Below, in pieces: positions 35,165-38,224 of a DNA stretch of 40,865 nt (position 1 is the stretch's first letter; every line of letters starts with the position of its first letter). The notes below the pieces were generated by a model. The model worked only from the letters and a program-made list of their open reading frames with translations, did no database searches and was not told the DNA's origin. A program made the translations under genes and the position numbers. Source of the DNA: an uncultured bacterium (GTDB taxonomy: Bacteria; Bacillota; Clostridia; Lachnospirales; Lachnospiraceae); NCBI GenBank assembly GCA_947643145.1, contig CANRVD010000022.1, forward strand, positions 1 through 40,865, given 5' to 3'.

Positions 35165-35968
35165 TTATTCTCGCGTACGCAACGAGCCAAGCGCAAGCTT
35201 GCTTGCATTTGGCTGTTGCGCGTCGGTCATTTTGATTACCCCAGGAACCAGACCAAAGTGCGAAAACGGCCAGATTCTCATAAATACTTTTCCAACAATA
35301 TCTTTTCTATGTACCATTCCAACAAAATCACTCCGGCTGTCCGTACTCATATTCCTGTTGTCGCCTAAAACAAAATATTCATCCTCTTTCAGAGTTACCG
35401 GCTCTCCTGCATTTCCACTGTTTAAAATTGCAGACAGGCAGTATTTATCGTCTGAAAGCACTTCTCCGTCAATATATACTTTTCCTTCCTTTATCTGTAC
35501 GGTTTCTCCCGGCAGTCCAATAACACGTTTGACATAATAGGTATTGTCCTGCTCACCATCCTGGTTCACAGAAAGCACTGGAAAAACAACCACGTCATAA
35601 CGCTCAGGATTACGGAAGTAATAACTGATTTTCTGTATAATAATAGAGTCCCCGTCCGAAAGCGTCGGCTCCATGGAATCTCCTTCTACCCACGTCTGAT
35701 GTGCCACATAATGAATAACCATAGTTGCAATAAAATAAGCAAGCAATATGCATACCGCTAATACAAAAATATTATTAATCGTCCGTAGCCCCGTGCTCTC
35801 TGAAGTGGGACGTCTCCAGCCCTTCACTTTGGCAACGGAAAGTTCCGCATTTTCCAAAGGAAGCCGTTTTTTCACTATTTTCGTTTCTTCCTCAAAGAAA
35901 GGCCCATAATATTCTTTTGCAGTTTTGCAAAATTCCAAACTGTCTTCTACTTCCTCTTTGTTATACAT
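35165..35968 (-). CDS. lepB: Signal peptidase I (active form)
   Basis: Cleaves signal peptides of secreted proteins. The 267-residue protein has a cytoplasmic N-part of about 60 residues, one membrane segment (about 65-88), the catalytic serine in G-D-S-M-E-P-T-L (Ser98), the catalytic lysine in V-K-R-V-I-G-L-P-G-E (Lys147) and box E G-D-N-R-N-x-S-x-D-S-R. I chose ATG at 35968 because GGAGG lies six bases upstream; it overlaps the rbgA stop by eight bases. The last 19 residues plus the stop are encoded by a palindromic element, so the C-terminal tail after about residue 248 is probably not part of the native enzyme. Confidence 0.92.
   Translation of the reverse strand: MYNKEEVEDSLEFCKTAKEYYGPFFEEETKIVKKRLPLENAELSVAKVKGWRRPTSESTGLRTINNIFVLAVCILLAYFIATMVIHYVAHQTWVEGDSMEPTLSDGDSIIIQKISYYFRNPERYDVVVFPVLSVNQDGEQDNTYYVKRVIGLPGETVQIKEGKVYIDGEVLSDDKYCLSAILNSGNAGEPVTLKEDEYFVLGDNRNMSTDSRSDFVGMVHRKDIVGKVFMRIWPFSHFGLVPGVIKMTDAQQPNASKLALGSLRTRE
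35171..35225. repeat. Palindromic element inside the 3' end of lepB
   Basis: ACGCAACGAGCCAAGCGCAAGC (left half from 35177) pairs with GCTTGCATTTGGCTGTTGCG (from 35201), with one bulge and two mismatches around a TT centre. The outer TATTCTCGC-type end also occurs at 39789-39797 next to etfA. It lies wholly within the last codons of lepB. Confidence 0.6.
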
Positions 35969-36824
35969 CGACATCCTCCGAACATTCCGGTAGTTCCAGG
36001 CTAATCGCGCCAAGCTTTCCTGCCCGAAAATCATCTATCAAGCATTTTGCTGCCTTATCCACATCATAGGCACCGCCTGCCTTCATACAGCCCCTGCGCA
36101 CTGCAATCTGCTCTAACTGCACTGCACTTTCCTCTACCTGCTCTGTTTCATAATAAGACGAAACCGCTTCCGGATAATTTTCACGCAGATAATCTAACAG
36201 CAGGATGCTAAGCTCATACATATTAAAAAGCTCATCCTTGATAGAACCAATAAATGCCAGGCGAAGCCCTACTGACTGGTCGTCAAATTTGGGCCACAAA
36301 ATTCCGGGAGTATCTAAAAGCTCTACATTTTTATTCAGACGAATCCACTGTTTTCCTTTTGTCACTCCTGGTTTATTTCCTGTTTTTGTACAGGCTTTTT
36401 TTGCAAAGCTGTTGATAAAGGTAGATTTTCCTACATTGGGAATTCCTACAATCATCGCCCGGATAGGACGGTTCAAAATGCCACGTTTCCTGTCCCGTTC
36501 TATTTTATCGTGGCATGCCTTCCTGATAATATCCTGCACTGCCTTCACACCGGCACCACTTTTTGAATTTACCTTTGCTACAAAATATCCTTTTTTCTCA
36601 TAATAGTCCATCCAACACTTTGTCCTTGCATCATCTGCCAAATCATACTTATTCAGCAGAATAATTCTGGACTTTCCATTTGCCATCTGATCAATATCAG
36701 GATTTTTGCTGCTTAGAGGCACTCTGGAATCCACCAGCTCAATGATTACATCAATCAGCTTCAAATCCTCCTGCATAGCACGCTTCGCCTTGGTCATATG
36801 ACCCGGATACCACTGAAACTGCAT
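35961..36824 (-). CDS. rbgA: Ribosome biogenesis GTPase RbgA (YlqF)
   Basis: Circularly permuted GTPase for late 50S assembly. In 287 residues the G4 motif N-K-Y-D comes first (near 58), then the P-loop G-I-P-N-V-G-K-S-T (about 127-135) and D-T-P-G. The start M-Q-F-Q-W-Y-P-G-H-M-T-K-A is the hallmark of the family. Its ribosome site (GGAGG) lies in the last codons of the preceding signal-peptidase-like gene. It overlaps the start of lepB by eight bases. Confidence 0.96.
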   Translation of the reverse strand: MQFQWYPGHMTKAKRAMQEDLKLIDVIIELVDSRVPLSSKNPDIDQMANGKSRIILLNKYDLADDARTKCWMDYYEKKGYFVAKVNSKSGAGVKAVQDIIRKACHDKIERDRKRGILNRPIRAMIVGIPNVGKSTFINSFAKKACTKTGNKPGVTKGKQWIRLNKNVELLDTPGILWPKFDDQSVGLRLAFIGSIKDELFNMYELSILLLDYLRENYPEAVSSYYETEQVEESAVQLEQIAVRRGCMKAGGAYDVDKAAKCLIDDFRAGKLGAISLELPECSEDVDV

Positions 36825-36827
36825 ATA

Positions 36828-37448
36828 CTACTTAGCCTCCTTCTCTTCCTTTTTATCCGCCTTTTCCTTTGCAAAACCATCCAAATTGCTGATTAGCTCG
36901 GCAGTATTCAGACGAATCCAGGCTTTTCCTACAATATTATCACGTAAAATGTTCCCAACATTCGCATTCCGGCTATCCTCGCCATTATTTCTGTTGTCAC
37001 AAAGTACGAAATATTCATCTTCATCCAAAATAACCGTCTCCAAAGCCAGTCCACCATTTTCCATTAACGGAAAATCATATTTTTCCTCCAGCAGTTCTCC
37101 GTCAATATACACCTTACCATCCTTTATCTGAATCTGCTCTCCCGGAAGCGCAATGACTCTTTCTACAGAATAATAATTATGTTCTGATCCTCTCTGCTCC
37201 ACAATAACAACATCATTCCGCTTAATCGAATGAATGCGGTATGACATTTTATTGACTAAGATTTCATCCCCATTTTCCAATGTCGGGCTCATATACTGGC
37301 CTGTTACCGTAAAGGTCTCCATTCCATAATGCGTAAATGCATACCCAAGAAAGACAACCACAATTACCTCAAGGACAGTAATTAAGATTTTCCGGGCTAA
37401 TTTTTTCCCCGCCTCTTTCCGGTTCTCTAAATCAAAATCATATTTCAT
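36828..37448 (-). CDS. Signal peptidase I-like protein lacking catalytic Ser and Lys
   Basis: A 206-residue protein with a membrane segment at about 21-40 and the whole S26 fold signature: box B G-x-x-M-x-P-T-L, box D with R-V-I-A-L-P-G-E, and box E D-N-R-N-N-G-E-D-S-R. The catalytic serine position is Tyr52 (G-Q-Y-M-S-P) and the catalytic lysine position is Glu96 (S-V-E-R-V-I). The first glycine of box E is Cys. The reading frame is intact, so it is not a decaying pseudogene by frame. An inactive paralogue beside an active one is known in Staphylococcus aureus (SpsA next to SpsB). AAGGAG precedes the ATG. It is 11 bases after mecA and three before rbgA. Confidence 0.88.
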   Translation of the reverse strand: MKYDFDLENRKEAGKKLARKILITVLEVIVVVFLGYAFTHYGMETFTVTGQYMSPTLENGDEILVNKMSYRIHSIKRNDVVIVEQRGSEHNYYSVERVIALPGEQIQIKDGKVYIDGELLEEKYDFPLMENGGLALETVILDEDEYFVLCDNRNNGEDSRNANVGNILRDNIVGKAWIRLNTAELISNLDGFAKEKADKKEEKEAK

Positions 37449-37459
37449 TCGGAGACTCC

Positions 37460-38224
37460 TTACATCTGGTATTCTTTTATAAGCTGTAATGCCTGCTTGC
37501 CAATAATCATTTCATAATGCTCTTTACAGTACTGCTCAATGAAAGGCTGGCCTGTAAGAGGCACTCCATATTCCATCAGCCTGTGGCATACCTTTTCATA
37601 TTCCTCTAACTTAAGCTTGCCCTTCTTTACCAAAAGATACCATGCGCCCTTCTTTCCATCCCGGTATAATTTATTTGGAAAAATCTTTGTCATCTCAAGG
37701 CTTGCCGCAAAACTCTCAAGTGCCTGGAACTGCTCAAAACGGTATACCTTCGCCGCACTGCGTCTCTTCCGGTTCTTCTGAGACAGCTTTTTGGCTTCCT
37801 CCTCCGGCAGATTCTTGAGCCGCTCTTCAAAATCCTGCATATTTTCTTCACTATGAAGGCTCTCTTCCGAGGTTGCACCGGTTTCACGCGCCATTGCATT
37901 GACAATGGACTCCGCCGTTCCCTCATCAATCAGCCCTGCCAGATTTTGAATCTGGTTCAGCATACTCTGAAGACCTTCTTCTCCTCTGTCAGAAAAAGTT
38001 ATCACTAAAGAATCATCCGGCATCCGCATAAGCTGCATCGAAATCATCCCACTTTCCACCTCATAGCCGATTTCTTCCTCGGCACGCTCCACCAGCCTCT
38101 CTAAAAAATCACGCGACTTTTCCTGATTCGTAAAAAAGTCCTCTATCCGCAAACCGTACTCCCGCATTTCCTCCACTGTCATATGGCACTGTACGGTATT
38201 CTTTCCAATTCTCTCAAATTCCAT
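37460..38224 (-). CDS. mecA: Adaptor protein MecA
   Basis: Adaptor that delivers substrates to the ClpC ATPase. The 254-residue protein has the N-terminal substrate-binding domain (about 1-75, M-E-F-E-R-I-G and I-E-D-F-F-T-N), an acidic linker, and a C-terminal ClpC-binding domain (about 160-254, F-x-x-L-E-x-F-A-A-S and L-Y-R-D-G-K-K-G-A-W-Y-L-L-V). The ATG has GGAGG and a consensus-like promoter is just upstream. It is the first gene of the transcript running into the signal peptidase and rbgA genes. Confidence 0.93.
   Translation of the reverse strand: MEFERIGKNTVQCHMTVEEMREYGLRIEDFFTNQEKSRDFLERLVERAEEEIGYEVESGMISMQLMRMPDDSLVITFSDRGEEGLQSMLNQIQNLAGLIDEGTAESIVNAMARETGATSEESLHSEENMQDFEERLKNLPEEEAKKLSQKNRKRRSAAKVYRFEQFQALESFAASLEMTKIFPNKLYRDGKKGAWYLLVKKGKLKLEEYEKVCHRLMEYGVPLTGQPFIEQYCKEHYEMIIGKQALQLIKEYQM

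Follow-up and report, generated by a model that had tools for sequence, protein, structure and literature searches.

A conserved signal peptidase I homologue with both catalytic residues replaced in a genus of Lachnospiraceae

Why would a bacterium keep a signal peptidase gene in which the residues that do the cutting have been replaced? The question is raised by a stretch of DNA of 40,865 nucleotides from an uncultured member of the Lachnospiraceae (contig CANRVD010000022.1 of assembly GCA_947643145.1; hereafter the window), in which two signal peptidase I genes, here called lepB1 and lepB2, lie on either side of rbgA. The original prediction, made from this DNA alone, was that lepB1 is an intact frame in which Tyr stands for the catalytic Ser and Glu for the general-base Lys, and that it is under selection for a job that does not need them. 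Judged from the sequences compared here, LepB1 is a conserved signal peptidase I homologue with both catalytic residues replaced, held under purifying selection. That it serves as a non-cutting, membrane-anchored partner of LepB2, holding or presenting exported precursors for LepB2 to cut, is a tentative reading to which we give a probability of about 0.42. The gene and its active-site positions are as follows.

36828..37448, minus strand: LepB1, a dyad-less S26 signal peptidase homologue of 206 residues (open reading frame, PF10502, predicted structure model).
37293..37295, minus strand: LepB1 codon 52, which reads TAT (Tyr) in place of the nucleophile Ser, in TGQYMSP (from sequence).
37161..37163, minus strand: LepB1 codon 96, which reads GAA (Glu) in place of the general-base Lys, in YSVERVI (from sequence).
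36999..37001, minus strand: LepB1 codon 150, Cys, at the Gly beside the catalytic Lys, E. coli Gly272 (from sequence).
36981..36983, minus strand: LepB1 codon 156, Gly, at the Lys-steadying Ser, E. coli Ser278 (from sequence).

Codons 52 and 96 bear out the two proposed substitutions, and with Tyr52 and Glu96 LepB1 lacks the Ser-Lys pair of an active type I signal peptidase; Cys150 and Gly156 are two active-site alterations beyond those seen originally. Here and below a copy is called altered, or dead, when its Ser-Lys dyad is not intact in sequence. Residues were counted in three overlapping sets, namely 26 orthologues from the genus of the window, 28 named loci and the best 120 of 667 database homologues. 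Lys is absent from position 96 in all three (0/26, 0/28 and none among the best 120), the orthologues carrying Glu (14), Ala (5), Gln (3), Asp (3) or Gly (1) instead. Tyr is not fixed at position 52, which is Tyr in 12 orthologues, Asp in six, Glu in four, Asn in two and Ser and Gly in one each; Ser occurs there in one of the 28 named loci and in four of the best 120 homologues. Position 150 is Cys in 25/26 orthologues and in 118 of the best 120 homologues, with Gly in 4/28 named loci, and position 156 is Gly in 17 orthologues, Cys in eight and Ser in one. A sequencing error or a recent loss was considered and rejected, because Tyr and Glu recur in the closest database relatives (P0002-P0008, identity 88-96%) and no Lys occurs among the best 120 of the 667 homologues. 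We infer that the peptidase activity of LepB1 has been lost.

The gene itself is kept. An orthologue is present in 26 of the 28 genomes of the genus that were searched, the two without a match being 60% and 63% complete, and in all 17 genomes with a completeness of 90% or more and a contamination of 5% or less. The genus is probably that of Butyribacter intestini, as judged from match coordinates shared by one of its genomes (G014) and L058, B. intestini TF01-11. All 26 orthologues have an open frame, one of them interrupted by a contig end, and their alignment holds 39 invariant columns. The ratio of nonsynonymous to synonymous substitution rates (dN/dS) of LepB1 is 0.032-0.125 in the seven between-species pairs with dS < 1, none of which includes the species of the window itself. 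For LepB2 it is 0.090-0.203, above that of LepB1 in 5/5 pairs in which LepB2 is readable in both genomes, and the remainder of LepB1 is thus constrained no less than LepB2. Gene decay was rejected on these LepB1 values of 0.03-0.13. Relatives with Ser and Lys at the two positions, and relaxed selection on the gene, either of which would have spoken against the proposed job without the dyad, were both looked for and neither was found. Since Lys is lacking across the genus and dN/dS is low, the simplest account would be that the dyad disappeared on the branch leading to the genus, in a protein that was otherwise constrained.

LepB1 scores 113.8 bits against PF10502 (cut-off 22.9) and 124.4 bits against TIGR02227 (cut-off 47), and this profile match together with an N-terminal anchor places it in the S26 family and fold. 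The frame starts with ATG, preceded by AAGGAG, and begins 11 nt from the upstream mecA and ends 3 nt from the downstream rbgA. Its structure model (mean predicted local distance difference test score, pLDDT, 85) has a single N-terminal helix, residues 7-42, and the S26 domain is predicted to be extracytoplasmic. The position of the intact frame between mecA and rbgA is as originally described; its strand, which the original prediction did not give, is the minus strand. The active-type paralogue with Ser98 and Lys147 is found in the 267-residue reading of LepB2 that starts at 35968.

37323..37400, minus strand: predicted membrane anchor of LepB1, about residues 17-42 within model helix 7-42 (structure models and hydrophobic stretch).
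37460..38224, minus strand: mecA, ClpC adaptor gene, 11 nt upstream of lepB1 (PF05389, 169 bits).
35961..36824, minus strand: rbgA (ylqF), ribosome-biogenesis GTPase, between both lepB genes (TIGR03596, 354 bits).
35165..35968, minus strand: lepB2, active-type signal peptidase I (Ser98, Lys147), 267-residue reading (open reading frame; PF10502, 142.9 bits on the longer reading).
35927..35950, minus strand: VEDSLEFC motif, LepB2 residues 7-14, in the predicted cytosolic N-terminal tail (from sequence).

In all 26 genus loci and in the 28 named loci mecA is the next match upstream. The lepB genes lie near each other with rbgA between them, unlike spsA and spsB of Staphylococcus aureus, which we take to be adjacent. 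A stand-alone protein of 114 residues resembling the C-terminal part of FlhB (PF01312; 33962-34306 of the window, minus strand) follows rnhB, and a match stands at the equivalent place in many loci of the genus.

The arrangement reaches well beyond this genus, as two lepB genes often flank rbgA in Lachnospiraceae. In our trees the downstream LepB2 copies (slot 2) form one clade and the upstream LepB1 copies (slot 1) the rest. In a second tree, computed without one long-branch row (S1_G160), the genus orthologues form one clade (support 99) among the LepB1 copies and the slot-2 copies another (98), with 25 members from a family sample and 12 from the genus. The LepB1 of the window, lying upstream of rbgA and outside the slot-2 clade, is a copy of this cassette. 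The family sample held one genome per genus; 110 of 149 other genomes were examined, mostly genomes with listed hits to the genus profile, which favours strong hits, and rows whose dyad columns are cut by the end of a stretch were omitted from the slot counts. A LepB1 upstream of rbgA with readable dyad columns was found in 103 other genera, with Ser and Lys in 92 and altered in 11 (Lys to Arg in six, Ser to Ala in two, both in three), against 1/78 altered among the LepB2s (Fisher p 0.014). Each of these 11 genomes encodes another S26 protein with Ser and Lys. Dyad changes number nine on two quick trees, well-supported branches forcing only four for the LOST label, and holding the altered copies of the upper clade together was not rejected (p 0.345). 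As read from the alignments, one of two old lepB copies has repeatedly lost its catalytic dyad and yet is kept under selection, both in the window's genus and in the loci of a second genus described below.

Two genomes of the sample deserve separate mention. In the sole altered slot-2 copy (G120; L151, 4396-4971) Lys is replaced by Arg and Gly272 by Ala, and the slot-1 copy beside it keeps Ser and Lys; possibly the two slots have swapped roles. The LepB1 of G062 (L107, 1441-2127) has Ser and Lys but about 13 extra residues inserted just behind the nucleophile, and was counted as intact; an apparent Ser-to-Tyr change was discarded as an alignment artefact, the profile alignment placing both residues, and whether this copy is active is doubtful.

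One of the 11 altered copies (G159) belongs to a second genus; of its 39 genomes searched, 35 had a match and 30 gave loci. In all 30 loci the Lys of LepB1 is replaced by Arg and the Gly272 equivalent by Ser or Cys, and the equivalent of Met53 is present; the nucleophile position is occupied by another residue in 21 and by Ser in nine. Likewise, the G159 protein has 423 homologues, of which the best 120 all carry Arg and 70 of these 120 keep Ser. In the second genus dN/dS is 0.03-0.11 (five pairs, dS < 1). Because of the chemistry of a general base, Lys to Arg is expected to kill the enzyme. In a rumen clade of Lachnospiraceae (L062, L063, L065-L067, L069), LepB1 has Arg for Lys with Ser or Gly at the nucleophile position, and rbgA is followed by rnhB, not lepB2; dN/dS is 0.07-0.12 in the eight of 15 pairs with finite dS, seven being saturated.

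The LepB2 copies of the window's genus, readable in 23 of 29 loci, have an N-terminal tail that varies greatly in length: the distance between the first Met and the catalytic Ser is 93-734 residues, where the family rows have a median of 46.5. Near the start all 23 carry [IV]x[DE]SL, with Cys three residues on in 19. Five tails (L048, L051, L052, L055, L056) are of low complexity, rich in Gln and Pro or in Glu, Lys and Arg, with 574-734 residues to Ser, and such a tail is unusual on a signal peptidase. A codon pattern for EDSLEFC, too narrow to catch variants of the motif, matched once in each of 11 of the 28 genomes. By coordinates ten of these hits are at the lepB2 place; the eleventh, in G006, falls elsewhere, within a frame resembling cytidine deaminase (named by eye). 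In the family sample the motif occurs in 4/78 LepB2s (G062, G105, G148 and G159), and in the second genus, G159 included, as [ILV]x[DE]SL in 14 of the 17 LepB2s in view. An altered LepB1 stands beside three of the four motif-bearing LepB2s, the fourth being that of G062, whose LepB1 keeps Ser and Lys, versus 5/69 of the genomes with both slots and a motif-less LepB2 (Fisher p 0.003). The simplest reading of these patterns would be one old pairing of an altered LepB1 with a tailed LepB2 and further losses of the LepB1 dyad elsewhere, and their co-occurrence lends indirect support to a partner role.

What the protein itself retains was assessed by comparing column entropy between LepB1 and LepB2, paired by gene in the 22 genomes in which both are readable. 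Mean domain column entropy is 0.79 bits in LepB1 and 0.96 bits in LepB2. The catalytic-centre quartet (52, 96, 150, 156) is looser in LepB1, with only 2/5000 random quartets as loose, and relative to LepB2 one stretch is tighter than any other.

37038..37073, minus strand: LepB1 residues 126-137 (FPLMENGGLALE), the stretch most constrained relative to LepB2 (paired entropy test).

This 12-residue stretch has the form FPxMENGGLALE, and 60/5000 column shuffles were as extreme. The residues that line the signal-peptide pockets of SpsB, as given in the accessible text of PMC4704075, were mapped onto LepB1 by alignment. The counterparts of Met37, Ile32 and Leu41 show little or no variation, and those of Tyr30, Val66 and Val76 vary among hydrophobic residues. 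Substrate-cleft residues Met53, Val48 and Leu57 are kept, the first and third in 120 of the best 120 homologues. With the former group kept and the latter drifting, LepB1 likely keeps a hydrophobic cleft, without the same fixed specificity.

Dyad-less signal peptidases are a known kind. The closest solved dyad-less relative of LepB1 is SipA (LepA) of Streptococcus pyogenes (PDB 4n31), a match in fold searches run with a LepB1 model of mean pLDDT 78; going by the available part of PMC4049620 and by the fold match, both are membrane-anchored proteins of the S26 fold with Ser and Lys replaced, the equivalents of Gly272 and Ser278 changed and the cleft kept. SpsA of S. aureus, which had been offered as a parallel, is a fair one, since the portion of PMC12445088 at hand describes it too as a dyad-less paralogue of an active peptidase (SpsB). 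As excerpted, PMC5025175 gives 48.8% relative phagosomal escape for an S. aureus spsA mutant. The active S26 enzymes of the LepB/SpsB/SipS type keep the dyad that LepB1 is without, and a type I signal peptidase of that type is likely its ancestor.

Taken together, purifying selection, a partly kept cleft, the constrained stretch, the proximity of LepB2 and the tail of LepB2 favour LepB1 as a non-cutting partner. Without the Ser-Lys mechanism LepB1 would bind an exported precursor peptide in its old cleft and would contact LepB2 through residues 126-137, the membrane or the LepB2 tail; LepB2 would then cut the precursor so held or presented, and LepB1 might in this way affect secretion. Selection for a job without the dyad is supported, in that 26/28 genomes keep the gene, Lys is missing from all orthologues and dN/dS is as low as that of LepB2; that this job is holding substrates or regulating the active enzyme, as first suggested, is still what we infer. 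Extended to a two-part signal peptidase spread broadly among Lachnospiraceae, with LepB1 as the substrate-handling subunit and LepB2 as a cutter whose long cytosolic tail carries a docking motif, [IV]x[DE]SLxxC, the proposal seems to us rather unlikely.

Several observations weigh against LepB1 as a partner of LepB2. A mirror tree of LepB1 and LepB2 gave no special link (partial correlation 0.16, 18 genomes), and the partial correlation of LepB1 is higher with mecA (0.55) and rbgA (0.44). In some pairs rbgA has a dN/dS below that of LepB1. Columns 54, 138, 84 and 62, outside the catalytic centre, are as relaxed in LepB1 as the quartet, to which columns 150 and 156 were added after their change had been seen. 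In the cleft, positions 46, 82 and 95 vary from one hydrophobic residue to another, 46 and 82 being fixed in LepB2, so that Ala-X-Ala specificity may be gone, and a SipA mutant meant to block the cleft was still functional according to the accessible part of PMC4049620. Nor is the pairing with a tailed LepB2 strict, since some altered LepB1s have a motif-less LepB2 or none beside them: the motif is lacking from three LepB2s of the second genus (L228, L233, L252), nine loci of that genus have an altered LepB1 and no LepB2 in view, five family genomes with both slots pair an altered LepB1 with a motif-less LepB2, and three have an altered LepB1 and no slot 2. Finally, the Fisher test of motif against altered LepB1 ignores kinship, which weakens its p of 0.003 because single-origin trees were not rejected, neither for the LepB1s of the window's genus and the second genus together with those of G148 and G105 (approximately unbiased test, p-AU 0.505) nor for all motif-bearing LepB2s (p-AU 0.576).

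Among the alternatives, the one that survives best makes LepB1 a regulator or decoy, which would occupy signal peptides or LepB2 and so slow or gate cleavage, with turnover by ClpC-MecA setting its level. The genes of LepB1, RbgA and LepB2 run head to tail, mecA lies directly upstream in the 26 genus loci and 28 named loci (at 11 nt in the window), and mecA accounts for the highest mirror-tree partial correlation of LepB1. Gene order by itself is, however, no proof of regulation, and a tblastn search of the short flanks of the altered copies of other genera (L062-L113) with the MecA of the window gave no match. We regard this explanation as unlikely.

A role like that of SipA, in which the cleft binds a surface protein uncut and helps sortase to build a pilus or surface polymer, appears quite improbable. 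SipA is encoded in a pilus gene cluster with a sortase, whereas lepB1 belongs to a mecA-lepB1-rbgA-lepB2 locus without a pilin cluster. No sortase match was found in 14 of the 28 genus genomes, that of the window included, or in 8 of the 17 of good quality, while 26/28 keep lepB1; the genome of the window has no candidates. With no sortase match in so many genomes, such a pilus role is unlikely. In sequence, moreover, LepB1 is nearer by profile comparison to active signal peptidases (4nv4, E 7.4e-21) than to SipA (4n31, E 2.3e-5).

It is very improbable, too, that LepB1 still cuts by other means, through a shifted Ser54, a Glu or Arg base, or Cys150 as the nucleophile. Cys150 is nearly constant, as is His90 (25/26 orthologues and 120 of the best 120 homologues), Ser52 survives in one orthologue and four of the best 120 homologues, and Ser together with Arg is seen in many copies of the second genus (9/30 loci, 70 of the best 120 homologues). 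Position 52, however, wanders among Tyr, Asp, Glu, Asn, Gly, Ser and Thr and position 96 among Glu, Ala, Gln, Asp, Gly and Val, which suggests that no replacement catalytic pair exists; no new pair is conserved across the genus, nor are Ser54, Cys150 and His90 kept together, and Cys150 gives way to Gly in 4/28 named loci. Ser54, raised earlier as a conceivable shifted nucleophile, is present in the gene of the window (AGC), but as Ser is found in only 9/26 orthologues and 65 of the best 120 homologues such a nucleophile is not conserved. That LepB1 is a functionless relic held by its operon place and on its way to loss is scarcely credible, for all that SpsA is called dispensable in the available text of PMC12445088, given dN/dS of 0.03-0.13, below that of LepB2, an open frame in 26/26 orthologues, the 39 invariant columns and the same kind of state in the second genus.

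Bacterial signal peptidase I is regarded as an enzyme that works by itself and as a target for drugs. Our literature search, which left most subscription journals outside its scope, found no report of a signal peptidase without its dyad in Lachnospiraceae, of the conservation of such a copy across genera, of dyad loss recurring in the LepB1 slot or of the LepB2 tail motif. The NCBI naming model for signal peptidase I scores LepB1 far above its cut-off and database names agree; since the model accepts a dyad-less protein and the names follow, counts of signal peptidases in such genomes are likely too high. The eukaryotic signal peptidase complex, whose accessory subunits are not known to be inactive copies of its protease, would be like LepB1 and LepB2 if a cutting and a non-cutting subunit cooperate. 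If LepB1 is the partner of LepB2, the signal peptidase of these bacteria would have two subunits, and if the two-part reading is true, gene duplication would have given bacteria a counterpart of the multi-subunit complex of eukaryotes.
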